The notes under the pieces: model-generated
What the model saw: only the letters and a program-made list of their open reading frames with translations
Database searches by the model: none
Told to the model about the DNA's origin: nothing
Shown: positions 10,888-47,355 of the stretch, piece after piece
Numbering within the stretch: the stretch's first letter is position 1
Layout: the number at the start of each line of letters is the position of its first letter
Program-made: the position numbers and the translations under genes
IMG/VR virus record: IMGVR_UViG_3300021406_000010
Coordinates: 62,001-126,000 of that record
Origin: a virus
Length of the DNA stretch: 64,000 bases
Strand: one strand, 5' to 3'

Positions 10888-11951
10888 GGCGTGCCTTCCT
10901 CGTCTTCGTCCTCGTCCTTCGGGTCCTCGAAGGGGATCGCGGCCCGCACCTCGTCACGCGCCTCCTGGCTAGCCCGCAGCCTGGTCAGCACGGCGGCCTC
11001 GCCATGGAGCCGGTCGCCGCCTGGCATCACGTAGTAGCCGCCGGGCTGCTGGTCTATCGCCTTCAGCCGCACCCCCAGCTTCAGGTGCTCGTGGGCGGAA
11101 TCGATGCCCTGCGGACCATGCTCCTCGGTCGCCTGGCTGTTGATCCAGAACTCGGCCACCCGGGACGAGGCGCCGGTCTTCAGCCGGGAGACCCGCGCCC
11201 GGCTCAGCCGACCGGTTACCTCCTCCTCGCCCCAGTAGGCGCCCTTGCGCTGGCTGCCCTGCGCGAATACCTGCGCCATCTCGATCTTGGCGGTAGTCGC
11301 GTGCTGCATCGCCTTCGGCCCGGCCGACACGTCACCGCTCATCATCGATCCTGGATTGGCGCGGTACTGGTTGACCAGCAGGATGGTGACGCCATTGTCC
11401 CGGGCGAGGGTGGCGAGGTGCTTGGACATCCTGGTGATCACCTGGGCGTTCTTGCCGACCAGGTCCTTCTCCGCGTCCTTGTCCAGGGCCTTCTTGCTCT
11501 CCAGGCCGCCTATCGAGTCGACGATGATCAGCGACGCGAGGCCGCTGGCGCACCACTCCCGGGCCATGTCGCTGGCCGTCTCGGAGTCCGGCGGGAAGGG
11601 ATGGTTCCAGCGGCCCGCCTGGCGTGCCCGCTTCGAGCAGTCCACCCCGATGGCGGTAGCCCAGGCGGGCTTGAAGGTGCCCTCGATGTCCTCGTAGACG
11701 ACCCCCAGGTCCGGGAACATTCGCTGGTAGTTGACGGCGGCTGACAGTACCAGGGAGCTTTTCCCGGCGTCCTTCACGCCGACCAGCTCGTAGATGCGGC
11801 CCCGCCGGAATCCGCCCTCGCGCAGCGCCCAGTCCACGGCGATCGACCCGGAGGGAACTATCTCGGCAGCAGGCCGGACCAGCCCCGCCTGGCGCTCCCC
11901 GTAGGACCTCCCCATCTTCGCGGCGAAGGCCGCAAGCTGGCGGGCGGTCAC
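10884..11951 (-). CDS. recA: RecA-like recombinase
   Basis: 355 residues. Walker A GVKDAGKSS (residues 58-66), Walker B ASLIIVDSIGG (about 139-149), and ILLVNQYRANPGSMM with the loop-2-like region identify a RecA/UvsX-family strand-exchange ATPase. The C-terminus is strongly acidic (DPKDEDEDEEGTP), as in bacterial RecA, where it modulates DNA binding. The Walker A differs from the bacterial GPESSGKTT. It starts with ATGA coupling to the gene downstream and probably acts with the exonuclease and resolvase. Confidence 0.85.
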   Translation of the reverse strand: MTARQLAAFAAKMGRSYGERQAGLVRPAAEIVPSGSIAVDWALREGGFRRGRIYELVGVKDAGKSSLVLSAAVNYQRMFPDLGVVYEDIEGTFKPAWATAIGVDCSKRARQAGRWNHPFPPDSETASDMAREWCASGLASLIIVDSIGGLESKKALDKDAEKDLVGKNAQVITRMSKHLATLARDNGVTILLVNQYRANPGSMMSGDVSAGPKAMQHATTAKIEMAQVFAQGSQRKGAYWGEEEVTGRLSRARVSRLKTGASSRVAEFWINSQATEEHGPQGIDSAHEHLKLGVRLKAIDQQPGGYYVMPGGDRLHGEAAVLTRLRASQEARDEVRAAIPFEDPKDEDEDEEGTP

Positions 11952-12193
11952 GACAGCCGCCTGCGCCGCAGGCCGCGCCGGTAGAGGCGCGCGGACTCAG
12001 CCGTCCAGGATGCGACGACGTACGCGAAGCAGGCGTTGCCGAGCAGGAACTGCGACGGGTTGAAATGGATCGAGGCGTCGCCGTAGATGGCGAAGAGGAA
12101 CTGGAGGAAGAAGGCGAGCCACCGCTGGCCGAGGGGCCTGCACCAGTACCGCGCGAAGGGCAGCGCGTGCGCGGCCGCCTGCCTGAGGATCAT
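11948..12193 (-). CDS. Small membrane protein
   Basis: 81 residues with two hydrophobic stretches (WLAFFLQFLFAIYG and FLLGNACFAYVVASW) and a very basic C-terminus (RGLRRRRLS). The C-terminal positive charge suggests that end faces the cytoplasm. Coupled by ATGA to recA. Function unknown. Confidence 0.6.
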   Translation of the reverse strand: MILRQAAAHALPFARYWCRPLGQRWLAFFLQFLFAIYGDASIHFNPSQFLLGNACFAYVVASWTAESARLYRRGLRRRRLS

Positions 12194-12408
12194 GGCTGGC
12201 CCGCCCGGTGCTTCTTAACCCACGAGCGATGGCGGCCAGTCCAGGCGAAGGCCTCGCTGCGCGCCTCCTCGCCGCTGCCCACCCGCACTCCTATGCGCCA
12301 GGAGGCGATCCACACCCGGAAGAACGGCCACCAGGCGATGTCCTTCGCCTTTGCCCGGTCACGCCGGTAAGAGCGCGCCAGCCTGCGTGGTCCTGGGTAC
12401 CGGCTCAT
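12190..12408 (-). CDS. Small basic protein
   Basis: 72 residues from ATG 12408, rich in Arg and Trp (KDIAWWPFFRVWIASWRIG), possibly membrane-associated. A TTG at 12426 is an alternative start. An operator-like dyad lies immediately upstream. Function unknown. Confidence 0.55.
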   Translation of the reverse strand: MSRYPGPRRLARSYRRDRAKAKDIAWWPFFRVWIASWRIGVRVGSGEEARSEAFAWTGRHRSWVKKHRAGQP

Positions 12409-12422
12409 GTCATCGCCTGCTC

Positions 12423-12445
12423 TCAATAGCTTGAAACATTGTATT
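12423..12445 (-). promoter_or_regulatory. Dyad operator (site 2)
   Basis: ATAGCTTGAAACATTGTATT at 12426-12445 matches the shared element at 15 of 20 positions. A minus-strand TATTGA (12428-12423) is in the usual -10 position. This is one of the weaker matches. Confidence 0.4.
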
Positions 12446-12479
12446 CGACGCGGGCACCCCGCCGCTAGTGAAGGAGGGG

Positions 12480-15400
12480 TCAGTCCCCGATGGGGGTAAT
12501 CCCCGCCAGCCGCCAGCCGGTGCGCACGCCCCGGCCGGGCACCGCGTAGGAGCGCCGCTCCGCGTCGGCGAGGACCAGGGTGCCAGGCCGGATGCGCCGC
12601 AGGTCGCCGGGGACGTCCGGCTCGTCGTCGCGGCGGGGGGAGAAGCAGGCCATGGACAGCGACGACACCTCCGTGTCAATCGCCGCCCACCACATGGTGG
12701 TGCCGGCGCGGGTCAGGGCGGGATGCCACTCGGCGAGGATCCCCGCGATCGGGAAGGTCCCCGCCCGCGCCGCCGAGGCCGCCAGGGCGATCTCCCGCGC
12801 CTGCTGGCGGGTGCCCTCCCCGTGCCGGTCCAGCTGGGCGAACGGCAGGGGCGACATCCAGGTGCCATAGGCCTCCCGGTCCTGCCGGTACAGCTCCGAG
12901 GCCCGGTACTCGGCGGCGGCGGCGGGGTCCGCCGAGGGCGGCGGAGAGTACTGGCGGCAGGCGACCGTGCACCGCTTCGGGGGGCCCTTGACGGCGAGCT
13001 TCAGCGCCCGCTTCCCCGCCGCCATCCGCTCCGCGTTGACGGCCGCGTTGCGCTCTCCCTGGAGCGCCGCCTCGGCCTGCCAGTCGTACGCGCACGGCAG
13101 CCCGCCGGGGCCGCTGGCGGCGGGGTCCTTGTGCTCGCAGCGGGTCGCGGTGCCGTCGCGGGCGCCCTGCAGCAGCAGGGCGATCCCCCGGCGGGAGGGA
13201 ATGATCGCGTCGAGGGCGCCGGCGGAGACCAGGGCGCGCAGGACGTCGGCCCTTGCCCCTGACCGGGACCGGAAGTCATCCCAGGACGAGTACGGCTGCC
13301 CCCTGGTGATCGCCTTGACGGCGGCGTCCCCGACGCCCCTGACCGACTTCAGGCCATAGGTGACGCTCAGCGGCCCGCACGTGAAATCGGCGCCTGAGAA
13401 CCTCACGTCCGGGGGGAGGACTGAGATTCCCCTGCGGCGGGCGTTGACCGCGAACGGGGCCATCCGGTCCATCTCCTTGAGGGTGGACAGGATCGAGGCG
13501 GTCATCTCGACCGGGTAGTGCGTCATCAGCCAGGCAGTCCAGTAGGACAGCACGGAGTAGCACCAGGCGTGGGCCCTCCCGAACGCGTACTTCCCGAACT
13601 CGGCCATGGCCGACCACAGCTCGCGGACCTGGTCCTCGTCGTGCCCCCGCTCCGCGCACCGGCGGATGAACTCTTCCCCTGCCGCCTCGATCTTCTCGGT
13701 CAGCTTCTTCCCCATCATCTTGCGGACGCCGTCGGCCTCCAGGTCGTCATACCCGGCCACGATCTTGCAGGCCATGAGGATGTCCTCCTGGTACGCCATC
13801 AGCCCGTAGGAGCGCTTCAGGTGCTCCTCCAGCAGCGGGTGCGGGTAGGTGACCGGCTCGGCCCCGGAGCGCCGCCGCAGGTAGGCCTCGGCGGCGCCCG
13901 AGTTGCGGGGCCCAGGCCGGATGATGGTGGTCAGGTCCGACAGGTCGCTGATGGAGCCGGGCTTCATCCGCTCGCAGTAGTCGCTGCACAGCGGGGTTTC
14001 CAACTGGAACATCCCGAGCGTCTGGCCGGTCCCGATCTCGTCGTACACCTGCGGGTCCAGGTGCTCTTCCTCCCAGCCGCGCAGGTCCAGCGCGATGCCG
14101 GCGCGCGCCTCGATCAGCTCGACCGCCCTGGCGATCGAGTCGAGGTTGCGCAGCGTCAGCATGTCGACCTTCATGTAGCCGAGGGCCTCCACGGACCGGA
14201 AGTCCCACTGGGTGACCATCAAGCCCTTTCCGCCCTCCTCGCGGCGCATCGGGATCCTCCCCGCCAGCGGGACGCCGGGGGAGATGACCAGCCCGGCGGG
14301 ATGCTGGCCGAACGCGTACACCCGGCCGGACAGGGCCTGGGCGACCTCGAACAGCTGCGGGTACCGACCCGCGTACCGGGCGATCTGCGGGTCGGTGACG
14401 AGCTCGTCCCATGGCAGCCCCAGCCCGGCGGTCCCGGCCTCGGCCTCCTCGATCAGCCCGGAGACTACCTTCATGTCGCCCACGGCCTCGTCGGGCAGGA
14501 TCGCGGCCATGACGGTGGCGAGCTTGGCCAGGCTGCGCTTCATCCCGCCCCGCAGGACGGTCCCTATCCGGACGACGTGCTCCTCGCCGTACTTCCCGAT
14601 GGCGTAGTCCTGCGCCTGCCCGCGCCTGCTGGAGGGCAGGTCCAGGTCGAAGTCGGGCAGCTCCCTGCGGCCCTCGGTGAGGAACCGCTCGAACATCAGG
14701 CCCGCCCTCAGCGGGTCGACGCTGGTGATCCCGGTCAGGTGGCTCATCAGCGACCCGGCCGCCGACCCCCTGCCGGGGCCGACGAGGATGCCCTGCGACC
14801 GGCACCAGGAAACAAGGTCCGCGACGATCAGGTAGCAGCCCGCCAGGCCCTTGCGGGCGACCATGGCGAACTCGCGGTCCTCCCGGTCGCGGTACTCCCG
14901 GGTACCGGGCACCTGGTGCCAGCCGGCCTCGCACAGCTGCCGCAGGGCCCGGGCGTCATCATCGGGGGTGCCGCCGGGGGTGAACACCGGCGGCTCGACG
15001 TGGCCGCCGACCCTCGCGGTGCACCGGTCCGCGATCTCCAGGGTATTGCGGAAGGCCGCGTCCAGCATGTCGCGGTCCAGGTAGCCGAGCAGCTCGCGGG
15101 CGCGGTCCTCGGAAAGCATTCCGCTGAAGTTCCAGTAGTTCTCCTTGGACTTCCCCGCCTGGCAGGCCATCCACAGCCTGTGCAGCCCCTCCTCGGCGGG
15201 CGACGGGTAGTGGGCGTCGGACGCGGCGACAATCGGCAACCGGTACTCCCGGGCGATGTCCTGCAGCATCAGGTTGAGGCGGCGCTGGTCGGGGATCTCG
15301 TTGGGTTGCACCTCCAGCATCAGCCGACCGGGGAACAGGGCGCGGAGCCGGTCCAGGGAGTCCAGGGCCTCGTCCACCCGCCCTTCCAGGAGGTCCTGCG

Positions 15401-15938
15401 ACAGGACGCCGCCCAGGCAGGAGGTGGTGGCGATCAGGTCGCTCCCGTAGCGCTCCAGCAGCTCCCAGTCGACCCGGGGGCGCCCGTAGAAGCCGGTAGC
15501 GAAGGACTCGCTGGAGGCCGCCCACAAGTCGTGCAGGCCCCTGTTGCCCTGCGCGATGAGGATGAGGTGGTCGCCGTTGACCAGCTGCTTCTGGGCCGCC
15601 TTAGCCGCCTGCACCTCGGCCTCAAGGCGGCGGATCTCCGGCGTGACGATGGTGCCGTCGCCATCCGCGAGGGCGGCCAGCCGGGCACGCTGCCCGGCGG
15701 TGTCCGGCGGGCGGGCGAGGCGGTCGGGCCGGAAGTAGGCCTCCATGCCGAGCAGTGGCTTGATCCCCGCCTTGTCGCACTCGGCCTGGTGCTGGACGTG
15801 CACGGCGGCGTTCCCGTGGTCGGTGCACGCGACGGCGGGGATCCCGAGGCTGGCGGCCATCGCGGCGACCTCGGCGGGAGTCTGCTCGCCGTCGAGGACG
15901 GACAAGTCGGTGTGGCAGTGCAGGTCGGCGTACGTCAT
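12480..15938 (-). CDS. dnaE: DNA polymerase III alpha subunit (C-family replicase)
   Basis: 1152 residues, full length for DnaE. The N-terminal PHP domain begins DLHCHTDLSVLDG and has CTDHGNAAVHV. The palm has GPGRGSAAGS and PDFDLDLPSS, the catalytic Asp pair that reads PDIDIDF in bacteria. The helix-hairpin-helix region includes VRGVGDAAVKAI, and the C-terminus is OB-like. I chose ATG 15938 (after GGAAGGCCGCCC) because the PHP motif starts there; the longer frame adds unrelated residues. With its own primase-helicase, SSB-like protein and FEN nuclease the phage probably copies its genome largely independently of the host. No proofreading exonuclease gene was seen. Confidence 0.9.
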   Translation of the reverse strand: MTYADLHCHTDLSVLDGEQTPAEVAAMAASLGIPAVACTDHGNAAVHVQHQAECDKAGIKPLLGMEAYFRPDRLARPPDTAGQRARLAALADGDGTIVTPEIRRLEAEVQAAKAAQKQLVNGDHLILIAQGNRGLHDLWAASSESFATGFYGRPRVDWELLERYGSDLIATTSCLGGVLSQDLLEGRVDEALDSLDRLRALFPGRLMLEVQPNEIPDQRRLNLMLQDIAREYRLPIVAASDAHYPSPAEEGLHRLWMACQAGKSKENYWNFSGMLSEDRARELLGYLDRDMLDAAFRNTLEIADRCTARVGGHVEPPVFTPGGTPDDDARALRQLCEAGWHQVPGTREYRDREDREFAMVARKGLAGCYLIVADLVSWCRSQGILVGPGRGSAAGSLMSHLTGITSVDPLRAGLMFERFLTEGRRELPDFDLDLPSSRRGQAQDYAIGKYGEEHVVRIGTVLRGGMKRSLAKLATVMAAILPDEAVGDMKVVSGLIEEAEAGTAGLGLPWDELVTDPQIARYAGRYPQLFEVAQALSGRVYAFGQHPAGLVISPGVPLAGRIPMRREEGGKGLMVTQWDFRSVEALGYMKVDMLTLRNLDSIARAVELIEARAGIALDLRGWEEEHLDPQVYDEIGTGQTLGMFQLETPLCSDYCERMKPGSISDLSDLTTIIRPGPRNSGAAEAYLRRRSGAEPVTYPHPLLEEHLKRSYGLMAYQEDILMACKIVAGYDDLEADGVRKMMGKKLTEKIEAAGEEFIRRCAERGHDEDQVRELWSAMAEFGKYAFGRAHAWCYSVLSYWTAWLMTHYPVEMTASILSTLKEMDRMAPFAVNARRRGISVLPPDVRFSGADFTCGPLSVTYGLKSVRGVGDAAVKAITRGQPYSSWDDFRSRSGARADVLRALVSAGALDAIIPSRRGIALLLQGARDGTATRCEHKDPAASGPGGLPCAYDWQAEAALQGERNAAVNAERMAAGKRALKLAVKGPPKRCTVACRQYSPPPSADPAAAAEYRASELYRQDREAYGTWMSPLPFAQLDRHGEGTRQQAREIALAASAARAGTFPIAGILAEWHPALTRAGTTMWWAAIDTEVSSLSMACFSPRRDDEPDVPGDLRRIRPGTLVLADAERRSYAVPGRGVRTGWRLAGITPIGD

Positions 15939-15959
15939 GGGCGGCCTTCCGGGGACAGG

Positions 15960-15995
15960 CCGGCCGTGCCACCCCGGGGAAAGTGGCACGGCCGG
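15960..15995 (-). terminator. Perfect 13-bp hairpin between SSB-like and polymerase genes
   Basis: Arms CCGGCCGTGCCAC (15960-15972) and GTGGCACGGCCGG (15983-15995) are perfectly complementary with a 10-base loop. There is no T-run, which is normal for high-GC actinobacterial terminators. Because the polymerase follows on the same strand it may attenuate rather than end transcription. Confidence 0.55.
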
Positions 15996-16006
15996 AGATC
16001 GGGTGG

Positions 16007-17038
16007 CTAGAAGGCGGGCGCCATGTCTTCCTGGTCGTCCTGGGGCGCCTGCGCGGCCTCGCGCTCAGCGAAATCGCGGTCGCCGTCCGCCGCCGGGGCG
16101 CGCTTCTTGACGCGGTCCCGGAACTTCTGGGCCGCCGGGGCGTCCACGGTGGGGGCAGAGGCGGAGGCAGTCTCGCTGGCGGCCTCGCCGTCCTCGTCCT
16201 CGCCGTCCTGGCCCTTGCGTCCGTAGCCGCCCTCGGGCTCCTCGCCCTCGATGAACCAGCGGCGGTAGTGGTCGAGGGTCGAGTGGTCCAGCAGGTATGT
16301 CTCCAGGTCGAAGCCGATCAGCTCCAGGGTGCTAGTGTAGGCCTCCCATGCTTTGGTGCCCGGGGCCAGGTCCGGGGTGGGCCGGAGGGTGGCGACCGTG
16401 TACTCGTTCTCCTTGCGGGTGACCTTGACGTCGGCGTCGGACCAGGTGCCGGTGATGTACGCGGACGCGGCCGGGGCGGCCCAGAACGTCTCGTAGTTCA
16501 TCGCGACGATGACGAGCTGCGGGACCTGGTGGACGTTGCCGTCCTTGTCCTTGTGCTCGGTCATCTTGTCCCGGAGGCCGACGGGCTTGCCGGTGGCGGG
16601 GTCCTTGACCAGCTCGCGGACGGCGGCGATTCCGTACGTGAGGTACCGGGTGCGGCTCATGTCCTTCTTGAACTTCGGGTCGGGCACCCCGGCCCACCTG
16701 TCGTGCAGGTAGCAGACACCGTCGTAGCCGTCCTCCCATCCTTCGAGCGGCATCCCGTCCGGGCCGCCCAGCCGGAACTGGCGGTCCTTGCGGCAGACGC
16801 CCCACATCTTGTCCGGCCACTTGTCGCCCTTGAAGCCCTCGGGCTGGGGCTTGGTCGGCATGTAGGAGTGGACCTCGAACGAGTAAACGTCGGCCTTGTC
16901 GGTGATAAGGCGGAGGTACACGGGGTCGTCCCCGTCCTTGATGATGAGCTGGTCCAGGCGGCCGAATGACCTCTTGCGTGCCCTGGCGATCTCGTCGGCG
17001 ATCTTCTCGGCGGCTTCCGCGCCCCTGCTGAGTGGCAC
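16007..17038 (-). CDS. Putative single-stranded DNA-binding protein (gp32/SSB-like)
   Basis: 343 residues from GTG 17038 after AGAAAGGGG. The N-terminal region (DDPVYLRLITDKADVYSFEVHSY) recalls the entry to the OB-fold of large phage SSBs, and cysteines at GVCRKD and GVCYLHD could bind a metal as in gp32. The last 70 residues are acidic, ending DDQEDMAPAF, close in style to the SSB tip DDDIPF that recruits replication proteins. It lies directly upstream of the polymerase. The call rests on context and the tail; no family match is certain. Confidence 0.5.
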   Translation of the reverse strand: MPLSRGAEAAEKIADEIARARKRSFGRLDQLIIKDGDDPVYLRLITDKADVYSFEVHSYMPTKPQPEGFKGDKWPDKMWGVCRKDRQFRLGGPDGMPLEGWEDGYDGVCYLHDRWAGVPDPKFKKDMSRTRYLTYGIAAVRELVKDPATGKPVGLRDKMTEHKDKDGNVHQVPQLVIVAMNYETFWAAPAASAYITGTWSDADVKVTRKENEYTVATLRPTPDLAPGTKAWEAYTSTLELIGFDLETYLLDHSTLDHYRRWFIEGEEPEGGYGRKGQDGEDEDGEAASETASASAPTVDAPAAQKFRDRVKKRAPAADGDRDFAEREAAQAPQDDQEDMAPAF

Positions 17039-17058
17039 TGAGTGCCCCTTTCTCCCTG

Positions 17059-17964
17059 CTAGGTGACCTTCCGGGCGATGACCGTGCTCACGGCGTATCG
17101 TGCCATCTCGCTGGTCGCGCGCCCTGCTCCTGTCATGAACACAATACAGCCTTCATTGCTATCACGCCACACCCTCGGGCCGTCGCCCGGCCACGCCCCC
17201 ACGGCGAAGCGCATGAAAACCCCACGGGAGGAGAGCTCGGCCGCGATCATGCCCTGCCACCGCGACAGCTCCCCCCTGCCGGGCCAGGAGGAGGCCCCCT
17301 GGGGGTCGCGCATGCTGTACCACCCCCACTCCCACCCCTGCCGGGGCGGCGGCTCCTGCGGCCCCGGCGGGGACGCGGGGACGTGCATGAAGCCCCACTC
17401 CTGAAGCACCTGCTCCTGGGTCACCGTCACCCGGCGCCCCGCCAGCCACGCCCGCGCCCGCAGCGCGGCGGCCCGCAGCGCGGCGGCGCGCTCGATGCCC
17501 TCCCGGTTGTCCCGGTCGAGGAACAGGCCGCCCTCCGGCGTCAGGTCATAGGCCCGGCGGGTGGCCGGGTCGAGCAGCTGCAGCAGCGCGTAGCGCAGCC
17601 CCTCGTCCCTCGCCATCGGGTCGAGGGCCAAGTAGGCGAGGCGCAGCTCCCGGGTGGTGGCCCGGGTGGGCACGCCCAGCCTGCGGTAGTAGCCGCGCAC
17701 GTCGCGGACGGTCCAGGGGACCAGCTCCTGGCAGGACGACGCAAGGAAGACCGGGCCGCCCTCCCTGGCGACGCTCCAGCCGTCATCGGTAATGCGCTCC
17801 CCCGGCTCTGCCGTCCAGGCGGCGGGCTCCGCCATGGCGGACTGGGCCTCGGCGAACTCCCGGGAGGCCGAGGACAGGACCCTGGTGTAGTGCAGGACGC
17901 AGCGGGCGCCGAGGACCTCGTCCAGCCGCAGGTCCCCGCTGTCGCCGGTGAAGGGGCTACTCAC
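17059..17964 (-). CDS. Degenerate J-domain protein lacking HPD
   Basis: 301 residues from GTG 17964. Residues 88-140 (DVRGYYRRLGV, RELRLAYLAL, LLQLLDPATRRAYD) follow helices I to III of DnaJ domains, with the final RRAYD typical. The HPD tripeptide needed to stimulate Hsp70 is absent; LDP stands where it would be and the loop is short. It may therefore be a structural relic or bind without stimulating ATPase. A dyad operator-like sequence lies inside its 3' end. Confidence 0.5.
   Translation of the reverse strand: MSSPFTGDSGDLRLDEVLGARCVLHYTRVLSSASREFAEAQSAMAEPAAWTAEPGERITDDGWSVAREGGPVFLASSCQELVPWTVRDVRGYYRRLGVPTRATTRELRLAYLALDPMARDEGLRYALLQLLDPATRRAYDLTPEGGLFLDRDNREGIERAAALRAAALRARAWLAGRRVTVTQEQVLQEWGFMHVPASPPGPQEPPPRQGWEWGWYSMRDPQGASSWPGRGELSRWQGMIAAELSSRGVFMRFAVGAWPGDGPRVWRDSNEGCIVFMTGAGRATSEMARYAVSTVIARKVT
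17143..17162 (-). promoter_or_regulatory. Intragenic dyad operator (site 3)
   Basis: AATACAGCCTTCATTGCTAT matches the reverse of the shared element at 17 of 20 positions. It lies inside the J-like gene about 105 bases before the SSB-like start, with a minus-strand TATTGT as a possible -10. Confidence 0.5.
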
Positions 17965-18400
17965 CGTCCTCCTGGTCCGGGCCGGGGGCCGCGCGTTCCT
18001 CGCCCGCAGCTTCGCCGACTTCCGGGGGCGGGTCCGGCAGCGGGACGTCCTCGGCATACACGGGCCGCAAGGCGCCGCTGCCCGCCTCGATGCCAGTGAC
18101 GCGGCCCGTCACCGCGCCGGTCTTCCTGATGCTCATGCCGTCCGTCCTCTCGTCGCCTTCCCCTAGCGTGCCACCTTCCGGCGGCCGGGTGGCCGGCTCC
18201 TCCGTCCACTGGCAGCCGCACGCCCGGCACCTGATGCACAGGTGCGGCCCGGCGCCGGGGTCCTCCTCGCAGGGGAACCCCGGCAGGGGCCCGAAGGTGA
18301 GCAGCGGGACCTCCTCATGGAAGGCGACGCTGGCGTCCTCCGCCCCGCAGGCGGGGCAAAGGTGCTGCGGATCGTGCGGGCGCAGGCCGTAGGGGCTCAC
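17957..18400 (-). CDS. Zinc-ribbon-like protein
   Basis: 147 residues from GTG 18400, overlapping the previous stop (GTGA). LCPACGAED and CIRCRACGCQW give paired CxxC knuckles. An internal ATG (MSIRKTGAVTGRV) follows GAGAGGACGGC, so a shorter second product is possible. The C-terminus is acidic and Pro-rich. Function unknown. Confidence 0.6.
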   Translation of the reverse strand: MSPYGLRPHDPQHLCPACGAEDASVAFHEEVPLLTFGPLPGFPCEEDPGAGPHLCIRCRACGCQWTEEPATRPPEGGTLGEGDERTDGMSIRKTGAVTGRVTGIEAGSGALRPVYAEDVPLPDPPPEVGEAAGEERAAPGPDQEDGE

Positions 18401-18750
18401 CCCGGGCCCCGGCCTAGCGCGGCGCTCATCGAGGCGACCGCCTCCGGGTTCAGCGCGCGCCATGGCGCCCACGAGTCGTCGTCCAGCTTGTGCTCCATCC
18501 ACCCCGGGACATCCGGCGTCGGCTCGAACGACGGCTCGCCCGCCGCGCACCGCTCGCACTGGTAGCCCAGGTGCTCAGCGCAGAAGTACAGCCCGCAGCC
18601 GTCCTCGCCGCCGAGCGGCACCTCCCCGGCGCAGACGAAGGCCAGCCCCCGGTCAATCGCCGCGCCGCAGCCGGCACGGTCGCACGTCGCGGGCACCCCG
18701 TACCCGATGTCCCGCTGCCACCTGGCGTCGTACCCTACTGCCCAGCTCAC
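18397..18750 (-). CDS. Small zinc-binding protein
   Basis: 117 residues with TCDRAGCGAAID, FVCAGE, DGCGLYFCAEHL and QCERC, at least eight Cys/His ligands. The pattern is that of small actinophage zinc-binding proteins. It is the first gene of the long early operon, directly after the iteron block. Confidence 0.65.
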   Translation of the reverse strand: MSWAVGYDARWQRDIGYGVPATCDRAGCGAAIDRGLAFVCAGEVPLGGEDGCGLYFCAEHLGYQCERCAAGEPSFEPTPDVPGWMEHKLDDDSWAPWRALNPEAVASMSAALGRGPG

Positions 18751-23087: not shown

Positions 23088-23816
23088 TTACTTCTTCGGT
23101 GCGTGCAGCGACGCCGTCGGCGCGCTGCGGGTGGTGATCGCCGCGAGGATCTGAAGTCCCCGCAGCGGGTGGCGCCGGATCCAGTGCGCCATCTTGACGT
23201 GGTCCAGCACCCGGACGGACCGGGTAAGCCCGTTGTACTCGGCCTGGGTGACCTTGCCGTCGGCCAGCAGCCTTAGCAGGACTGCCCCCGCCGGCTCGGC
23301 CTTGCCCTTGACGTACCTCTGCTGCCATGCGTCCTGGTAGCCCTCGACGGGCACCTCGAATGGCTTTTCCGGCTGGGCGGCGAGCAGGTGGCCCTTGCCC
23401 TTGCCGGACTCGATGACGGTGACGGGAAGGCCCGCCTCGCGGGCGAGGTGGTCCTGGTGGACTCGGATCATCTCCTGGACGGCGGTGCGCCGCTTGCCGA
23501 TCTCGTCGTTCACCGCGTCGATGGCGCTGACTTCCTCGGTCAGCGCCTTCACCTCGGCGGCCTCCAGCCGCCTTGCCTCGGTCGGGCTCACCCTCCCGAA
23601 CACCTCGGGCAGGTGGCGCAGCGCCCCGAGCAGGCCCTCGGTCAGCGGGACCTGCTCGACGGGGTCAGGCGCCGGGGGAACCTCGGGGGCCGCCGCCGGG
23701 CGGGCGAGAAGGTCGGCGAGCTTCTCGATGGTCCAGGGCTTGTCTCCCTGGACCATCGACAGGACGCCGGGGGCTACTGCCTGGTCGAGGGCAGTGCTCG
23801 CGGTCGCTTCAGTCAT
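23088..23816 (-). CDS. Hypothetical coiled-coil protein
   Basis: 242 residues from ATG 23816 after GAAGGAAGC. The longer frame would begin inside the promoter, so I reject it. A Pro-rich stretch (APEVPPAPDPVEQVPL) precedes a central coiled coil (LEAAEVKALTEEVSAIDAV). The C-terminus is basic. It has the best promoter-operator pair in the window. Function unknown. Confidence 0.65.
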   Translation of the reverse strand: MTEATASTALDQAVAPGVLSMVQGDKPWTIEKLADLLARPAAAPEVPPAPDPVEQVPLTEGLLGALRHLPEVFGRVSPTEARRLEAAEVKALTEEVSAIDAVNDEIGKRRTAVQEMIRVHQDHLAREAGLPVTVIESGKGKGHLLAAQPEKPFEVPVEGYQDAWQQRYVKGKAEPAGAVLLRLLADGKVTQAEYNGLTRSVRVLDHVKMAHWIRRHPLRGLQILAAITTRSAPTASLHAPKK

Positions 23817-23852: not shown

Positions 23853-23882
23853 ATGATAGCAAGAAAACCTGCTATCAGGCAA
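23853..23882 (-). promoter_or_regulatory. Promoter with perfect dyad operator (site 4)
   Basis: Minus-strand -35 TTGCCT (23882-23877), an 18-base spacer and -10 TATCAT (23858-23853). The spacer and -10 hold a dyad with 7-bp arms GATAGCA and TGCTATC (23855-23876, 8-base centre). A bound protein would block polymerase, so this is an operator. Confidence 0.75.
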
Positions 23883-23888
23883 CCAGGG

Positions 23889-24248
23889 CTAGTCGTCCCC
23901 GCCGGGGTCGACGTTCCAGGCCGGCTCGTTGCGACGGGGCTCCTCGTGCCGCCTGATGTCGTCCTCGTGGGAGGCGTAGAACTTGTCGGCCACCTCCTGC
24001 GCCACGGCGGACAGCCCGCCGATGGTGGCCGCGAACTCCTTCAGCTCCTCCGCCGGCGGATCGTTGACGGGTGCCTCCTCGACACGGGCCACGATGCCCG
24101 TGAAGTCCTCCGCGAGCCCCTCGAACAGGGCCGGGAGGCCGGCGAAGAATCCCATGATCGACGCGGCGTTGTCGAACTGGATCCCGCTGAGGACCTCGGA
24201 GACGTGGTCCTTCAGCTCCGTGAGCGCCGGTGATGGTGATGGTGCCAT
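23889..24248 (-). CDS. Helical protein of the conjugation-like module
   Basis: 119 residues from ATG 24248 after AGAGGAGCACGAC. The sequence (ELKDHVSEVLSG, IMGFFAGLPALFEGLAEDF, HEDDIRRHEEPRRNEPAWNV) resembles small helical proteins found beside transfer genes of Streptomyces elements. The frame is open upstream into the basic membrane protein with no stop between, and an operator-promoter at 24368-24390 could instead start translation at GTG 24362 (157 residues). Confidence 0.55.
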   Translation of the reverse strand: MAPSPSPALTELKDHVSEVLSGIQFDNAASIMGFFAGLPALFEGLAEDFTGIVARVEEAPVNDPPAEELKEFAATIGGLSAVAQEVADKFYASHEDDIRRHEEPRRNEPAWNVDPGGDD

Positions 24249-25661
24249 GTCGTGCTCCTCTGATGGTGACGGGGGCGGCGGGCGGTCACCGCCCGGTCCG
24301 TGCCCGGGGTCAGGCCGGGCCCTCCTGGACTCGTAGGTGACCTCCGGCCCGGGGTCATCCACTGGCGATGTTAGCAAGGAAAGCCTCATCCCGCGAACAA
24401 GCCGGAACAGCCGGCGCAGGCGGTGCTTCCACCTGCGGTACAGGCGCCCGACCAGCCGGACCAGCCGGAAGTCCCCGTTCCCGCCGGCCCGCCAGGTCAT
24501 CAGCTCCGGGTCCGGGCGCGGCGGCGAGGGCCGGAACCGGAGCCTCGGGCACGGGATGGCGCCCCGCCGGCGCCACGACCACCGCAGCCCGCGAGCGCCT
24601 CCCCGGGCGGCACCGCGAGCCGCCGTCCAGGGCAGCCTGCGCCACCGCACCCTCGCCGCCCCCCTCCTGGCCCAGTAGAGCGGGGACAGCGGGGGGACCC
24701 ACCCCAGGCCGCGCGGGCGCGGCGGGCGGCCGGGCATGCCACCCCGGCCGCCAGGCGGGCGGAACGCCGCCCCGGAGCGGGAGGCGCCCCGGGACCGGGC
24801 GCCGCCAGCCCGGGGCACGCCGCCTGGGCGGCGCCCGGTCCCGCCGGGATGGCGGCTCCCCCCGCCGGGGATGCCCCGGGACCGCCCGGCCGCCATCCCC
24901 GGGAGGCGGAATGACGACGGGCGGGACCCTCCGGGCATCCTGCCCCGCGCCGGGGCGCCCCAGCCGGGCACCCCGGAGAGGCGCGCCCCGCGAGCGGAAC
25001 CGCGCGAGGGACTCGCCCCGGCGCGGGGACGCGCGCCCCCCGGCCAGGGCAGGTGCATGCCCCACGGGCGCAGGCTTCCCGCGCGAAACGGGTGCGCACT
25101 CCCCGTGCGGAATGAGTGGCCGCCTCCTGCACGGGAGAGCGCCGCGCCCCCTGTGCGGAAGAAACGTGCACCCCCCGCACGGGAAGAGGCCGCACCCCCT
25201 GTGCGCACCCCCCTGTGCGCACCCCCGTGCGCGGCGCTACCCCCCGGGGGTAGCGCGCCCCCCGGGCCGCGCCGGCGCGAGCTGCCCGCACCCCCGGAGA
25301 ACCGCGCCGGCGCGCTCTGGGCGGCCATGCGCAGCCAGGGCACGCGCCGCGCGATGCGGGGCGCGCCGCTCATCAGCGCACGCGCCAGCGAAGCGCCCCC
25401 CTGGCGCACCCCCCGGGGGCCGCGCCGGCGCGGCATGCCGCCGCCTCGCCAGTTCCGGGGGTGCAGCCGGCGCAGTACCGCGCCGGCGCGGCGCAGCCTG
25501 CGCCGCACGTGCCGCAGGACGCGGGGCGACACCGCGACGCCGCCGCCCGCTGCCAGGCCAGCCCCCCAGCCGGCCAGCCGCGCGGTGCCTGCCGCCGCCA
25601 GGATGGCCAGGAAGACCACGATGGCGGCCCTCCTGGCCCGGACGGCGTCCCACTTACCCAC
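24249..25661 (-). CDS. Basic Gly/Arg-rich membrane protein with repeats (read-through to next gene)
   Basis: Starts at GTG 25661 after GGGAGGAGCGG, overlapping the previous TAA. An N-terminal hydrophobic helix (AIVVFLAILAAAGTARLAGW) is followed by strongly basic, low-complexity sequence with repeats of the form RTGGA and SRAGGA. The frame has no stop before the helical gene at 24248, so the product is either a 590-residue fusion or its end is obscured by a sequence error. The repeats come from an iterated 15-base DNA element. Confidence 0.45.
24368..24390 (-). promoter_or_regulatory. Intragenic dyad operator/promoter (site 5)
   Basis: TTAGCAAGGAAAGCCTCATC at 24371-24390 resembles the shared element, with a minus-strand TAACAT (24373-24368) five bases before an in-frame GTG at 24362. 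It suggests separate expression of the downstream helical gene. Confidence 0.45.
25092..25243. repeat. Iterated GCACCCCCTGTGCG array
   Basis: About six or seven imperfect copies of GCACCCCC(T)GTGCG on the plus strand, three of them head to tail at 25192-25240. They lie in the basic membrane-protein gene and encode its RTGGA repeats. The same unit occurs in the opposite orientation at 25956-26175. Confidence 0.6.
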
Positions 25662-26769
25662 GAGCGCCCGCTCCTCCCGGGAGCTGGCCGGCCGGGGCGG
25701 CGATCAGCCCTGGCTGGCGTCCTGCCCTGGCCAGCCGGGGAGTGGCCCGGCGCTCTTCCAGCAGCGTCCGCGCGACGCGGCGCCGGTCCCTCCCCGTCGG
25801 GTCCAGCTCCCGGGACAGCTGGTTGATGGACGGCAGCCTGGATTCGGGCAGCCCGGCCAGGCGCTGCCGGGCCCCCTCAATGACCTCCTCCGCAAGGGCG
25901 GGAGCAGTCATGGACGGCACGGCGTGCAGGGTCGCGGAGCCGCGCACGACCTGGGGGTGCACAGGCGGCGCGCTCTCTTCCTGCACAGGGGGTGCGCCGT
26001 CCCCGTGCACAGGGAGTGCGCTCTCCTTGGCGCGGGGGGTGCGAACGGGGGGTGCGGCCTCCTCCTGCGCGGGGTGCACAGGGGGTGCGCCATCGGGCAG
26101 CGCGGGGGGTGCGGCGCTCGCCTGCACAGGGGGTGCGGGGATCTCGCGCACGGGAGGCGCGCTGTGCACCGTGCGCAGGGCGCGCGCACGGCCGGCGCGG
26201 CGCTCGTCGACCCAGGCGATCGCGCGGGCGGGGCTGCTCTCCCCGACCCAGGCGGCATGGGAGGTAGCGCGCAGCGAGAGCAGCGGGTGCCACATCCAGC
26301 GCGCCGGGCCAAGCCGCACGGCGTGCTCCTCGACCAGGCCGAGCTCCATCAGGCGGTCGCGGCTGACACGCCGGGAGTGGATGCCCCATAGCCAGGGGGA
26401 TAGGGCGCTCATCATGAGCATCCCGACCGCCATCACGGTCGGGCGCCAGTGCACGGCGGCGAAGTGGCTGTAGTTCATTGCGCCTATGACCAGGCCGAAC
26501 GCGTAGCTGGCCAGCCGCAGCCGCATCGAGGAGTCGTTCTTCATCTGCGCCGCGTGGGCGTGAAAGGCCAGGTAGACGGCGATGGACTCCAGGGCCAGGG
26601 CGACGAGGACCTGGCCCCCGACCGGCCAGGGCACGTGCTGGCGCAGGTAGGCGAGCTGCCCGATGAACGCCGTGGCGTTCACCAGCACGACGGGAACGGC
26701 GGCGGTGACGGCCAGCGCGCGGCTGCCAGCGGGCGCGGCCGGGCGATCCGCCAGTCCGGTAGGTGTCAC
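25654..26769 (-). CDS. DUF2637-like membrane protein with repeat tail
   Basis: 371 residues from GTG 26769 after CCGAGGAGGCTCCCC. Three or four membrane spans occupy the first 150 residues (LAVTAAVPVVLVNATAFIG, VLVALALESIAVYLAF, LASYAFGLVIGAMNYSHF, VMAVGMLMMSALSPWLWG), then SRDRLMELGLVEEHAVRLG. This layout matches DUF2637 proteins found beside TraB-like translocases in Streptomyces conjugative elements. The C-terminal third is a repeat of APPV and APPVH units coded by the iterated DNA element. Confidence 0.6.
   Translation of the reverse strand: MTPTGLADRPAAPAGSRALAVTAAVPVVLVNATAFIGQLAYLRQHVPWPVGGQVLVALALESIAVYLAFHAHAAQMKNDSSMRLRLASYAFGLVIGAMNYSHFAAVHWRPTVMAVGMLMMSALSPWLWGIHSRRVSRDRLMELGLVEEHAVRLGPARWMWHPLLSLRATSHAAWVGESSPARAIAWVDERRAGRARALRTVHSAPPVREIPAPPVQASAAPPALPDGAPPVHPAQEEAAPPVRTPRAKESALPVHGDGAPPVQEESAPPVHPQVVRGSATLHAVPSMTAPALAEEVIEGARQRLAGLPESRLPSINQLSRELDPTGRDRRRVARTLLEERRATPRLARAGRQPGLIAAPAGQLPGGAGARG
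25956..26175. repeat. Iterated TGCACAGGGGGTGCG array (inverted relative to 25.1 kb)
   Basis: About eight copies of TGCACAGGGGGTGCG and variants on the plus strand, read on the minus strand as APPVH. Orientation is opposite to the array at 25092-25243 and the reading frame differs, which argues for a DNA-level function or DNA-level spread. Confidence 0.65.
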
Positions 26770-26803
26770 GGGGAGCCTCCTCGGGGGAGCGGTAAGTTGC
26801 CCT

Positions 26804-26826
26804 ACAATACCAAGAAAGCCTGTATT
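26804..26826 (-). promoter_or_regulatory. Dyad operator over promoter (site 6)
   Basis: AATACCAAGAAAGCCTGTATT at 26806-26826 with a minus-strand TATTGT (26809-26804) as -10, driving the DUF2637-like gene. The -35 (TGTACC) is weak. Confidence 0.6.
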
Positions 26827-26861
26827 CGGTACACTGGCCCTGGGGGGCCGTGGGTGACGGC

Positions 26862-26974
26862 AGGGTCACACGTCACACTTTTCGCCCCCTGGCCTGCGGA
26901 AACGTGAAGTGTGACCCTCGCGGGGTGTGATCCTGGCATGGCAAGGATCATTGCCCGCGAGGGTCACACTTCAC
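26862..26974. promoter_or_regulatory. Perfect 21-bp inverted repeat with extra half sites upstream of translocase
   Basis: Arms at 26904-26924 (GTGAAGTGTGACCC...) and 26954-26974 (...GGGTCACACTTCAC) are exact reverse complements around a 29-base centre that itself contains GATCCT and AGGATC. Another GGGTCACAC half site lies near 26867. Candidate operator of a repressor or a cis-acting transfer locus. Confidence 0.7.
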
Positions 26975-26995
26975 GGCCCGCAACTCACACTCCGC

Positions 26996-27015
26996 TGGCA
27001 AGGAAAGCTAACATT
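26996..27015 (+). promoter_or_regulatory. Dyad operator over leaderless promoter (site 7)
   Basis: TGGCAAGGAAAGCTAACATT resembles the shared element. Plus-strand TAACAT (27009-27014) would be the -10, eight bases before a GTG at 27023 and 11 before the ATG at 27026. Confidence 0.5.
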
Positions 27016-27025
27016 GGAACTCGTG

Positions 27026-29086
27026 ATGGATCACATGGATCACAGTGCGCGCGTGCGGGTCGTCACCTCCCGCGCGGACCCGGGCGCGGGACAGCCCGTC
27101 GCGGCAATGACGCCGCCCGGCGCCGCGCCGCCGCACAGGGCGAGGGCATGGGCGCACGCGGCCGAGACCGCCTTCGCCGCCGCGCTGGCCGTCACCGCCG
27201 CCACGGTCATCGCGCCGCGCGCCGGGGCCCCCGGCTGGGCGGTCCCGCTGGTCTCCGAGCTGACCGGTCTCGTCATCGCGGTCATCGCGCGCAGCCAGCG
27301 GCGCAGCGCGCTGGCAGGCTGCTGCGCCGCGATGGGAACGTTCCTCGCCACGTGGGGAGGTCTGGCCGGAGCCGACCCGTGGCGGTCCCCGCTGCTGATC
27401 GCCTGGCTGGCCGGGATGGCGGTCCTGGTGCCCGCCGTCGCCAGCGTCGCCCGCCGCCGGGACCGCGACCCGGAGCCGGCCATCACGCCGCCCACCCCGG
27501 AGGACGAGCACGACGCCGAGATGCGCAAGTTCGAAGCCATGCTCGCCGACCACGGGTGCGAGGTCCGGGTGCTCACCCTGTCCGAGGGACGGGCAGGGCG
27601 GGTGCTGCAGCTGGAGCTGCCCCTGTCGGGGAAGGTGACCCTGGGCCACCTGGAGTCGATCGCCGTCAACATCGGCGTCAGCCTGCGGCTGCGCCACGGG
27701 GCGGTCGAGTTCGCGGCGGGCGCCCACTCCGGCCTGGTGACCATGAGGCTCCGGGAGCGCAACGTCCTCGCCGAGGTCCCCGTGCTGACGCCCGAGCTGC
27801 GGGCCAGGACGGTGAACAGGCCCTTCGCCGTCGGCATCAGGGAGGACGGCCCGCCGCACTGCATCACGGTGCGGGAGCTGAACTGGCTCGTCGTCGGGAC
27901 CCTGGGGGCAGGCAAGTCGACGTTCCTCAACACGGTCATCCTCCAGCTGGCGTCCTGCCCGGACGCGGTCCTGTGGGGCATCGACCTGAAGGGCGGCCGG
28001 ACGATGAGGGCCTGGCTGCAGGCGTGGGCCGAGGGGAAGGCCCCCTTCCCGGCGCTCGACTGGATCGCCACCACCCGGGCGGAGGCGAACCTCATGACCA
28101 TCGCCTTCGAAGCAGTCTGCAACGCCCGGATGAACAGCGGCCGTGGCGGCAGCAAGATAGCCCCGAACCGCAACATGCCGCAGGTCGTGCTGTTCAACGA
28201 GGAGGCATCCTACCTGTACTCGACCGACCGGGGGACCCGCAAGGAGCTGATCATGGAGCTGGGCGAGGAGGAGGGCGCGAAGGCCACGTCGAACACGGAA
28301 TTCATCGCGCGGGCCAAGCGCACCAACCCGGGAACCCGGTCGGAGGCGGCGACCTACTTCTGGGCCACCCAGCGGGGGACCGCGTCGATGGGCGGCAGCG
28401 CCGACCTCAAGGCCCTCACCCGGGGCCGGGTCGCCCTCGGCGTGACCACTGAGGGCGAGCTGCAGCACGTCATCCCGGGAGTGCGGGCCGGCCGCAAGAC
28501 GCTGGTGGCGCTGGGCGCCCCCGGGGTGGGGATGACCGCCGTCGGCACCGACAGCAGCGGCCTGGTGAAGTTCTTCCCCACCGACCACGTCGCTGGACAG
28601 TGCAGCGAGAACGGCAACGACGGCTGCGTCCCCGCCTGTCCCATCTACGCGGCCAGCATCGAGGTCGGCCCGGTCCGCCCCCCGCTGGACGAGGTTACGG
28701 CCGCCGGGGTGGAGGAAGCGCTGGCCGCCGCCGGGCACCCGGGCGCGTACGCCCGCCGCTGGGACCGGGCCGCCGCGATCCTCGGCCCGATGGCCGCCGG
28801 CCGGAGCGAGTCGCCCGGGAGCGCGGACAGGGCGCGCGAGGTGGCCAGCCGGGCCCCGGAGCGGGTGCACCCGGCCAGGATCCGGGCCCGGAACATCCTC
28901 GCCTCCCGGGGGGTGGAAGGCGGGACCACCAAGTACCTGATGGACCGGATCAGGGACGAGGGCATCCCGCTGGTAGAGCGCGAGACCTTCCAGCGGTGGC
29001 TCGCCGCCGATGACGAGGCGGGCATCATCCACCACGCGAGGTTCAACCGGTGGGTGACCGGCCCGGCACCGGAGAAGAAGGACTAG
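27026..29086 (+). CDS. FtsK/SpoIIIE/TraB-like DNA translocase
   Basis: 686 residues. N-terminal membrane segments (ALAVTAATVIAPRAG, VSELTGLVIAVIA, LLIAWLAGMAVLVPAV), Walker A VVGTLGAGKSTFLN (about residue 290-300), Walker B QVVLFNEEASYL (about 387), then TYFWATQRG sensor-like motif. The C-terminal 60 residues look like a winged helix (TTKYLMDRIRDEG, ERETFQRWLAAD). In Streptomyces plasmids TraB moves double-stranded DNA between hyphae. I start at ATG 27026 just after the promoter; an earlier ATG at 26927 would overlap the inverted repeat. It runs opposite to the upstream module genes. Confidence 0.75.
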   Translation: MDHMDHSARVRVVTSRADPGAGQPVAAMTPPGAAPPHRARAWAHAAETAFAAALAVTAATVIAPRAGAPGWAVPLVSELTGLVIAVIARSQRRSALAGCCAAMGTFLATWGGLAGADPWRSPLLIAWLAGMAVLVPAVASVARRRDRDPEPAITPPTPEDEHDAEMRKFEAMLADHGCEVRVLTLSEGRAGRVLQLELPLSGKVTLGHLESIAVNIGVSLRLRHGAVEFAAGAHSGLVTMRLRERNVLAEVPVLTPELRARTVNRPFAVGIREDGPPHCITVRELNWLVVGTLGAGKSTFLNTVILQLASCPDAVLWGIDLKGGRTMRAWLQAWAEGKAPFPALDWIATTRAEANLMTIAFEAVCNARMNSGRGGSKIAPNRNMPQVVLFNEEASYLYSTDRGTRKELIMELGEEEGAKATSNTEFIARAKRTNPGTRSEAATYFWATQRGTASMGGSADLKALTRGRVALGVTTEGELQHVIPGVRAGRKTLVALGAPGVGMTAVGTDSSGLVKFFPTDHVAGQCSENGNDGCVPACPIYAASIEVGPVRPPLDEVTAAGVEEALAAAGHPGAYARRWDRAAAILGPMAAGRSESPGSADRAREVASRAPERVHPARIRARNILASRGVEGGTTKYLMDRIRDEGIPLVERETFQRWLAADDEAGIIHHARFNRWVTGPAPEKKD

Positions 29087-29754
29087 GACGGCGGCGGGAC
29101 CGCCGCCGCGACGGCCCGGTCAACGTCATCCTCGAGGGGGCCGCGCTCTTCCTCCCCCGCCACCAGCTGGCCGGTCAGGTCATGGATGGCGGAAAGCCGC
29201 CGCAGGGTGTCGGCGTGCCGGCCCGCGATGGCCTCCAGGCGGCGCCCGGCGACCTCGCTGACCGCCGTGGCGCGGGCGGTCGCCTCGTCGGTCACCCTCT
29301 TCGCCTCCTCGCGGGCGCCGGCGAGCACCACGTCCGCCTGCTGCCGCGCCCCGGCCGTAAGGGAGTCCGCCTCCCGGGCGGCCTCCGTGACCGACTGGCG
29401 GCCCCGGGCGGTGGCGTCCGCGAGGATCTTCTCCGCGTCGGCGAGCGCGGCTGCCCGGTTGCCCTCGATCTCGGCCGCCGCTGTCCGCAGCACGTCCTCG
29501 ATCAGCTGCTGGCCCTGAGGGCTCTCCGCTCCCCGCAGGAGGGCTCCCCCCGCCTCCCTGACGGCCCTGGCGGCCCGCTCCTCGGCGGCCCGGACCCTTT
29601 CCAGCAGTGCCAGGATGACGCGGTCCACCTGGCCGGGATGATAGCCGTCGGGAACCCGGTCGAAGCGGCGCGGGTCGGGGGCGAGCGCGCCCGGCGGGGG
29701 AGCCGCCGGCTGGGGGCCTGTCCGGCCTTGCCTGGGAGCGGGGGGAGTGGCCAA
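29083..29754 (-). CDS. DivIVA-like coiled-coil protein
   Basis: 223 residues from TTG 29754 after CAGGAGGACCCG. After a Pro-rich N-terminus, FDRVPDGYHPGQVDRVILALLERV resembles the DivIVA N-terminal GYxxxxVD motif, followed by about 120 residues of Ala/Glu-rich coiled coil. DivIVA marks hyphal tips in actinomycetes. Its stop overlaps the translocase stop convergently within CTAG. A role in placing the translocase is speculative. Confidence 0.5.
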   Translation of the reverse strand: MATPPAPRQGRTGPQPAAPPPGALAPDPRRFDRVPDGYHPGQVDRVILALLERVRAAEERAARAVREAGGALLRGAESPQGQQLIEDVLRTAAAEIEGNRAAALADAEKILADATARGRQSVTEAAREADSLTAGARQQADVVLAGAREEAKRVTDEATARATAVSEVAGRRLEAIAGRHADTLRRLSAIHDLTGQLVAGEEERGPLEDDVDRAVAAAVPPPS

Positions 29755-30529: not shown

Positions 30530-31354
30530 TCAAGAGACGGGGTCCGCGATCGGGACCGCGACCACGTCGTGCGAGCCGCAGGTGCGGCACTGGAAGACCG
30601 CTCCGCTGCCGTGGTTCCCCTGCCGGAGCTGCAGGTTCGACAGGCTGTTGTCGTGCTTCTTCCTGTTGTCCTTGTGGTGAACCGTTTCGTAGTCAGTAAG
30701 CGGGCGGCCAAGGGCCTTGGCCATCACCAGGCGGTGCTGCATCACGTAGCCGTTGACGCCCGGCGGGCACAGCAGGGCTTCCTCCGGCGAGGGCATGACC
30801 ATGGTGTATCCCTCGACGATCCTGATCCCTCCCTTCCAGTTGTGGTGGTCCTCCCTGGCCCTGTACCGGTTTGACCTGGTGTCCACCCCGGCTCGCCGCA
30901 GGGTCCCCCTGATCGTGATCGGGTTACCGCCGTGCTTCCTGGCTAGTTCGGCTAGGGAGGTCCCGGCCTTGAACTCCTCTGCCAAGACAGCAGTCTGCTC
31001 CTCGGTAAAGCGGTGGTGCTTGCCTCCCAGGCGGGGCGTGATCCCGGCCTCGCGCAGCACCAGGGAGACGGTGGTGTCCCTGGCGTGGACCAGGGCGGCG
31101 GTGTTCTTGACGCTAGTGCCCTCGTGCCAGAGCCGGATGATCTCGGCCCGGTTCTCCGGGGTGTCGTGCCAGTTGTACTCGGCACTGGGACGGCCCCGGC
31201 GTTCGATTCCCAGGCGCTTGAGGGCTGCGATGACCGGCACGGGAGAGGTCCCGTAAATGTCGGCGACCTGCTGAAGCGTCTTGCCGGCCTGATAGTGGCA
31301 GGCAATCTCGGCGTCCTGCTCGGGTGTGAAGAGTGGTTTTTTCCCTCTTGGCAT
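30530..31354 (-). CDS. HNH endonuclease with three helix-turn-helix units
   Basis: 274 residues. Three N-terminal HTH repeats (KTLQQVADIYGTSPVPVIAAL; HEGTSVKNTAALVHARDTTVS; GTSLAELARKHGGNPITI) precede an HNH core: MQHRLVMAKALGRPL, YETVHHKDNRKKHDNSLSNLQL. The C-terminus adds CRTCGSHDV. Freestanding HNH genes are mobile. A minus-strand CTGACA, 18 bases and TATAGT lie just before the ATG, giving its own leaderless promoter. It separates two virion-like small genes, as expected for an insertion. Confidence 0.8.
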   Translation of the reverse strand: MPRGKKPLFTPEQDAEIACHYQAGKTLQQVADIYGTSPVPVIAALKRLGIERRGRPSAEYNWHDTPENRAEIIRLWHEGTSVKNTAALVHARDTTVSLVLREAGITPRLGGKHHRFTEEQTAVLAEEFKAGTSLAELARKHGGNPITIRGTLRRAGVDTRSNRYRAREDHHNWKGGIRIVEGYTMVMPSPEEALLCPPGVNGYVMQHRLVMAKALGRPLTDYETVHHKDNRKKHDNSLSNLQLRQGNHGSGAVFQCRTCGSHDVVAVPIADPVS

Positions 31355-46594: not shown

Positions 46595-46903
46595 GGCGTC
46601 CTCCCTTGCTTCCGCGCCCGGGAGAAGGCTGCCCAGTTGGCAGCGCAGCCTACGGCACCGAAGGTTACCGGCTAGTAGGAGAAGGGCCAGTGCAGCGAGT
46701 GCACGGGACCTGGCGTTAAGGCTCCCATTGAAAGCTAAAGAACGTAAAACATAACTACTACTACTATTTTTTAATTATTTAGTATTTGTATTTACGTATT
46801 TAAGTCTTAGGAGGAGCTACGCGGGGGTCGTCCCCTCCCCCCTTTGGATGGCTACGCGGGTCGGCCCCCTCCCCCTCTGCCCACTGGAGGGCTACGCGGT
46901 CGT

Positions 46904-47350: not shown

Positions 47351-47355
47351 TGACC

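Follow-up and report, generated by a model that had tools for sequence, protein, structure and literature searches.

This work reports that four adjacent genes at bases 23889-29754 of the analysed window form a real gene set, a unit that exceeds what chance would bring together, in the genome of a large phage of actinobacteria. The window is the whole 64-kb stretch of DNA studied here, namely bases 62001-126000 of a source record of 166,488 bases. Judging from homology and gene anatomy, we hold with moderate confidence that the set is a module for DNA transfer like those of some actinomycete plasmids and of plasmid-phages such as pZL12, residing in a virulent myophage whose DNA it would spread through the mycelium. 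Conjugation-like transfer in a virus has already been described for a Streptomyces plasmid-phage; what the present data suggest to be new is an intact, phage-regulated module of transfer type, with a polar-protein partner, in a large virulent myophage.

The phage and its gene module

PHROGs matches in the record to a portal, a major head protein, a protease, a tail sheath and a baseplate, together with a capsid protein 56-58% identical to those of Myrna, Phabba, HyRo, Rhodococcus phage E3 and Gordonia phage Stormageddon (58% to Myrna and Phabba for the major capsid protein), assign the window by sequence comparison to a Bxz1/Myrna-type (cluster C-like) 166-kb myophage, in agreement with the contractile tail of the original prediction. 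As in the Bxz1/Myrna-type (cluster C) myophages, the capsid, portal, sheath, baseplate and DNA polymerase are of the same type, and IMG/VR holds at least 80 capsid relatives. Neither a tyrosine integrase (PF00589) nor a large serine recombinase (PF07508), as an AICE would have, is present in the record, and a ParA-type partition gene (PF13614), as in a P1-like phage-plasmid, was not found in this record, which may be incomplete; because of these absences the phage looks virulent. The hybrid, plasmid-like life style once envisaged thus has the module itself as its sole support. The hosts are probably filamentous soil actinobacteria.

From left to right, the module comprises an Arg/Gly-rich frame (23889-25661, minus strand), a DUF2637-like gene (25654-26769, minus strand), an intergenic region, a divergent translocase gene (27014-29086, plus strand) and a DivIVA-like gene convergent with the latter (29083-29754, minus strand), and it sits between two conserved core genes, one of them at 23088-23816. 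When 33 longer records of capsid relatives were searched separately with the translocase, the DUF2637-like and the DivIVA-like proteins, all three genes turned up in the same four relatives, and the remaining 29 had none of them, except for two short and weak partial translocase matches, one of which falls inside a carrier; since many of the 33 records are fragments, the absence is firm for the long ones only. Gene order and orientation are identical in all carriers, with identities of 40-47% over nearly the full length for the translocase, 46-54% for the DUF2637-like and 35-43% for the DivIVA-like protein, and the five orthologous translocases, at 39-46% identity, are all open, with Walker A and winged helix intact. 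One further contig (L184) covers the module's left part and breaks off at the translocase gene, and in a 166-kb relative (G013) the flanking genes are the same but the space between them is filled by other genes, without the module. As the carriers are among the closest relatives by capsid (94-95%) and G013 stands at 90%, the module may mark a lineage. The isolated cluster C members of the phage collection gave no translocase match. Adjoining the module, at window 30530-31354, is an HTH and HNH endonuclease gene that is missing at the same spot in the four module-bearing relatives; it is probably a mobile insertion of the homing type.

A promoter-like motif, AGGCTTTCTTGGTATTGT, lies at 26804-26821 (minus strand) upstream of the DUF2637-like gene, at the same spot in all five phages, and recurs at 23853-23870 (minus strand) upstream of the core gene that borders the module. 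These sites had been regarded as operators of the module's own; they belong instead to a motif, roughly AtacAGGCTTTCTTGCTATCAT, of which the 166-kb record has about 17 copies, where chance would give 0-1 per 64 kb. With this phage-wide motif ahead of the DUF2637-like gene in each of the five phages, the module seems to be integrated into the phage expression programme. Iteron origins had been invoked as well: an origin of this type inside the module was rejected, as no iterons occur there, and the part that stands is an iteron-like, AT-richer (45%) intergenic region at window 46586-47355, in which copies of CAGTGCACATCG point both ways and long inverted repeats occur; it is a candidate for an origin of replication or a control region of this phage.

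Architecture of the encoded proteins

The translocase gene is an open frame with an uncertain start, for which TTG 27014 has the best SD spacing and ATG 27026 and GTG 27053 are alternatives. Its product matches the PHROG 'FtsK/SpoIIIE-like' at 3.8e-26 and Pfam FtsK_SpoIIIE (P-loop) at 3.5e-5, with 23.8 bits against a cut-off of 24, and it carries the Walker A motif GTLGAGKS and a variant Walker B, with EE where DE is expected. The AlphaFold model (13 sequences, mean pLDDT 81) consists of four N-terminal helices, a RecA-like motor and a C-terminal winged helix (helices 616-631, 635-644 and 652-664, strands 668-670 and 676-678); the four N-terminal helices are hydrophobic and predicted to be transmembrane. 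In Foldseek comparison with the PDB, the model matched FtsK motor domains (E 3.9e-14) and the conjugation coupling protein TcpA (2e-12). The predicted structure, four transmembrane segments followed by an FtsK motor and a winged helix, is in keeping with the translocase originally proposed, and the combination of motor and C-terminal winged helix is a canonical TraB/clt feature.

The Arg/Gly-rich, membrane-anchored protein of 590 aa is encoded by a single open frame. Its residues 1-471 contain 20% Arg and an N-terminal hydrophobic segment and have a net charge of +83, and its last 119 aa form a conserved helical domain (23889-24248, minus strand). The composition-based gene finder did not call this frame; we take it as real because its counterpart is similarly open in the five relatives examined (590-689 aa from stop to stop), and as it overlaps the stop of the DUF2637-like gene, translational coupling is probable. 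The 119-aa domain may also be made alone from ATG 24248, which has the strong SD GAGGAGCACGACATG upstream. Its model is a long helical hairpin (mean pLDDT 89.6), and the fold gives no function because Foldseek against the PDB returned nothing below E 0.6; a WXG100-like hairpin was considered and found no support. An ARAGORN call of a tRNA-Arg inside the frame, at window 24745-24833, is regarded as a false positive of a low-complexity GC-rich stretch. The architecture of the whole protein recurs in Keanu gp93, ZL12 gp72, P1312 gp64 and a 563-aa protein of pSQ10.

The DUF2637-like protein has a hydrophobic N-terminal half, as seen from hydropathy, and a C-terminal end that, judged by eye, is HTH-like. 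Its membership is distant: the window copy itself has no match to Pfam DUF2637, one of the five phage orthologues matches at 1.4e-5, tblastn retrieves plasmid proteins at 1e-7 to 2e-7, one of them annotated DUF2637, and hhalign pairs the protein with Keanu gp91 at 97%.

The fourth gene encodes a coiled-coil protein like DivIVA and FilP, the latter described in PMC2680258. Pfam DivIVA (PF05103) matches five of five orthologues, at best with 6e-9, and the window copy scores 27.4 bits, just below the cut-off of 28; a sequence search of the PDB returned generic helical proteins only. Among host proteins it is matched best by frames of 352-363 aa in Actinomadura, Acrocarpospora and Nonomuraea, which fits a Streptosporangiales-type host and polar targeting but does not show them. 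Streptomyces humicola gives weaker matches, one of them a 325-aa frame that has a coiled-coil frame of 1261 aa nearby, a layout that we take to resemble filP-scy. No copy of the DivIVA-like protein was detectable in any other phage or plasmid of the searched collections; the one plasmid match, NZ_LT559118 of Nonomuraea gerenzanensis ("plasmid I"), is 11.85 Mb long and evidently a chromosome. Upstream of the translocase pair in L194, a viral contig seemingly derived from an isolate genome, an 813-aa coiled-coil protein is encoded at 1157-3598; missed by the DivIVA-like profile, it is a possible analogue of this partner. The FtsK-like translocase, the basic membrane protein and the DivIVA-like coiled coil that had been named at the outset are thus all present by open frames, Pfam and PHROG matches and composition, and the DUF2637-like protein is present as a remote relative.

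A repeat array beside the translocase gene

The intergenic region between the DUF2637-like and translocase genes holds an array of RTCACA/TGTGAY hexamers (26857-27045), a feature that goes beyond the original description and that is a candidate clt-like, cis-acting transfer site. Hexamers stand at 26865, 26872, 26910, 26926, 26963, 27029 and 27038, with the core TGGCCTGCGGAAAC at 26890. Seven of the nine GTCACA/GATCACA copies of the 64-kb window lie between 26865 and 27044, within about 180 bases, and control Markov sequences of order 1-3 with the window composition never had more than three copies per 250 bases. All relatives of the module-bearing set have the array. The hexamer pattern was taken from five relatives and then sought in other loci, including 55 bacterial ones that are termed AICE-like here, as they were fetched from chromosomes by Tra similarity. 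At least five copies per 250 bases occur in four of the 19 other module loci (Keanu, P1312, L189 and L195), and at most three in the 55 AICE-like and six other loci; by a hand calculation, uncorrected for the pattern variants tried, this difference has P ~0.002. The position of the array varies, being just after the translocase gene in P1312 and L189, before the Arg-rich gene in Keanu and 5.8 kb off in L195.

Other hexamers take a similar place elsewhere. Directly behind the FtsK-like gene of pSQ10 (L011:9516-9700) lie all nine CGTTAC/GTAACG copies of a 10-kb stretch, together with a TGGCCTGCGGTTACG core, which look like an undescribed transfer site; L196 has ten GTCACG directly behind its translocase gene, and L186 has AACTGT hexamers. 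The core TGRCCTGC, often followed by GGTAA, is found inside the arrays of the window, L181, L182, L184, L186, L196, pSQ10 and P1312. GTMACR, a motif fitted post hoc, has a density of six or more per 250 bases in eight module loci, whereas no AICE-like locus exceeds four. An unbiased hexamer scan run under strict conditions picked up the array in the majority of these module loci, though not in all. Several module loci, those of ZL12 and NBC_01259 included, are without such an array. The main alternative is that the array is an operator, and the hexamers point both ways, which those of a purely directional signal would not do.

Relatives among phages, plasmid-phages and plasmids

A single translocase query of viral contigs found nothing, whereas a query with the translocase alignment found relatives. 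In profile comparison, the translocase matched those of NBC_01259 (E 5e-37), Keanu gp94 (8e-30), P1312 gp63 (3e-27), pSQ10 (2e-27) and ZL12 gp71 (hhalign 99.4%, E 6e-22), and more weakly TraB of pJV1 (3e-12) and pIJ101 (1e-9). The 119-aa C-terminal domain of the Arg/Gly-rich protein is likewise homologous to the translocase-adjacent partners Keanu gp93, P1312 gp64, the 563-aa protein of pSQ10 and ZL12 gp72 (hhalign 94%, E 1e-7, for the last; weaker, 77%, for the NBC_01259 partner). It is encoded in viral contigs L189, L191-L194 and L196, and in L190 at some distance, and was never found in the 55 bacterial loci fetched with the same translocase alignment. By contrast with these two proteins, the DUF2637-like protein has no homology detectable by profile comparison to ZL12 gp73 or to the NBC_01259 membrane protein. 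On the NBC_01259 plasmid a terminase adjoins the translocase.

In a maximum-likelihood tree, the phage, plasmid-phage and plasmid translocases, among them those of pZL12, pSQ10, Keanu and P1312, stand apart from 25 bacterial (AICE-like) Tra proteins and two TraB. The support of this split is moderate (89/61), and the TraB and ZL12 branches are long; the Keanu-P1312 and pSQ10-L196 groups inside the tree are firm. As the translocase belongs to a separate phage/plasmid-phage group and not to TraB/AICE, its nearest relatives are phage-borne, and they are not devoid of a link to transfer, since pZL12 is one of them. By these comparisons the module is related to plasmid-phage and plasmid transfer loci of actinomycetes and not to the TraB/AICE type, so that the idea of a conjugative-plasmid-type set holds for the former and fails for the latter.

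For pZL12, a Streptomyces plasmid-phage, a 2010 report describes conjugal transfer, and from the map we infer that its transfer genes are gp71-gp73. As in the window, its phage-borne FtsK-like translocase comes after a Gly/basic-rich protein that shares the C-terminal domain, and a membrane protein is encoded as well; unlike the window phage, pZL12 is a circular plasmid of an unrelated phage type with plasmid maintenance, and its locus has a gp73 without detectable relationship to the DUF2637-like protein, co-directional rather than divergent genes, no adjoining DivIVA-like gene that could be seen and no GTCACA array. The Streptomyces phage Keanu (Hiyaavirus) shares with the window a row of DUF2637-like protein, Arg/Gly-rich protein with the same C-terminal domain and translocase (gp91-gp94) and a GTCACA/ATCACA array, but at ~25% identity, with co-directional genes, no DivIVA-like gene found and the array placed ahead of the Arg-rich gene. 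Nocardiopsis plasmid pSQ10 combines an Arg/Gly-rich C-terminal-domain protein, a translocase and a hexamer array, but is typed with a MOBF relaxase and has a different hexamer and no DivIVA-like gene that was found. The TraB/clt systems of pIJ101, pJV1, pSVH1 and AICEs likewise pair a single FtsK-type dsDNA translocase, having a DNA-binding C-terminus, with a repeat cis site adjoining tra; the window translocase, unlike canonical TraB/AICE, lies outside their part of the tree, has no integrase found with it, and differs in its partners, which in pIJ101 are spd genes. A further observation among the loci concerns L004, where 8810-18558 encode two phage proteins of very large size, 1967 and 1289 aa, and parts of one of them resemble NUDIX, ParB-N and RNA ligase; both are read as polyvalent proteins that may be injected.

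Discussion

From the gene set, its co-inheritance and homology, the predicted architecture, the phage-type promoter motif and the specific repeat array, we infer a transfer process of the following form. A phage promoter class would turn on the divergent module genes, the translocase would assemble as a hexameric membrane pump of the FtsK type, and two membrane proteins would assist it, the DUF2637-like one and the strongly basic, Arg/Gly-rich one. The winged helix of the translocase, or the DUF2637-like protein, would recognise the GTCACA-type array on phage DNA, and the DivIVA/FilP-like protein would position the pump at hyphal tips or septa, so that double-stranded phage DNA could be driven into a neighbouring compartment or hypha before lysis.

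Several findings speak against such transfer: isolated cluster C phages do without the translocase, with no integrase or ParA found, the phage lacks a plasmid state that would make slow spreading worthwhile, the ZL12 and NBC_01259 membrane proteins show no detectable relationship to the DUF2637-like protein, and several module loci are arrayless. Instead, the translocase might act inside the infected hypha, moving or anchoring DNA of the phage or the host that never enters another cell, for example by pulling phage genomes to a membrane site or clearing closing septa as FtsK/SpoIIIE do. The fold is equally that of FtsK, the DivIVA/FilP-like protein could work at septa or tips of the same hypha, and the phage is one without lysogeny genes; yet the translocase group contains that of pZL12, an element with conjugal transfer, the Arg-rich and membrane partners are retained as in plasmids, and the array is clt-like, private to the module and adjacent to the translocase gene, which together make purely intracellular handling rather unlikely. 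The clt-like array on the phage's own DNA, kept beside the gene in several lineages, also points to phage DNA as the substrate, and it weighs against a role in host takeover or exclusion, in which the membrane and DivIVA/FilP-like proteins would disturb polar growth or a second DNA element and the translocase would act on host or rival DNA; that PHROGs places phage FtsK-like proteins under moron/host takeover, that the module is accessory and that the DivIVA-like protein resembles host polar proteins leave this reading improbable nonetheless. Least probable of all, we think, is that the module came from a plasmid-phage as a passenger and persists with no function in its present carrier: a cassette-like distribution and the variant Walker B of the window copy would fit, but five orthologue sets are open, Walker A and the winged helix are intact and the phage promoter motif is at the same place.

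Returning to a DNA-transfer module, we tentatively extend the proposal, as a possibility about which we remain somewhat doubtful, to a virulent phage with two routes of spread, one by virions and the other as naked dsDNA by way of a polar FtsK-type pump acting on a clt-like site, with the array and its TGRCCTGC core being the transfer site of the whole actinophage/plasmid-phage/plasmid class. The array could help to define the transfer site of this translocase class, for which none is described in the literature reached, and, as it is a short DNA site acting with a small protein set, its role is directly testable. If the proposal is true, lysis need not be the sole route by which large virulent myophages spread in mycelia, and such transfer could explain phages outrunning septation.
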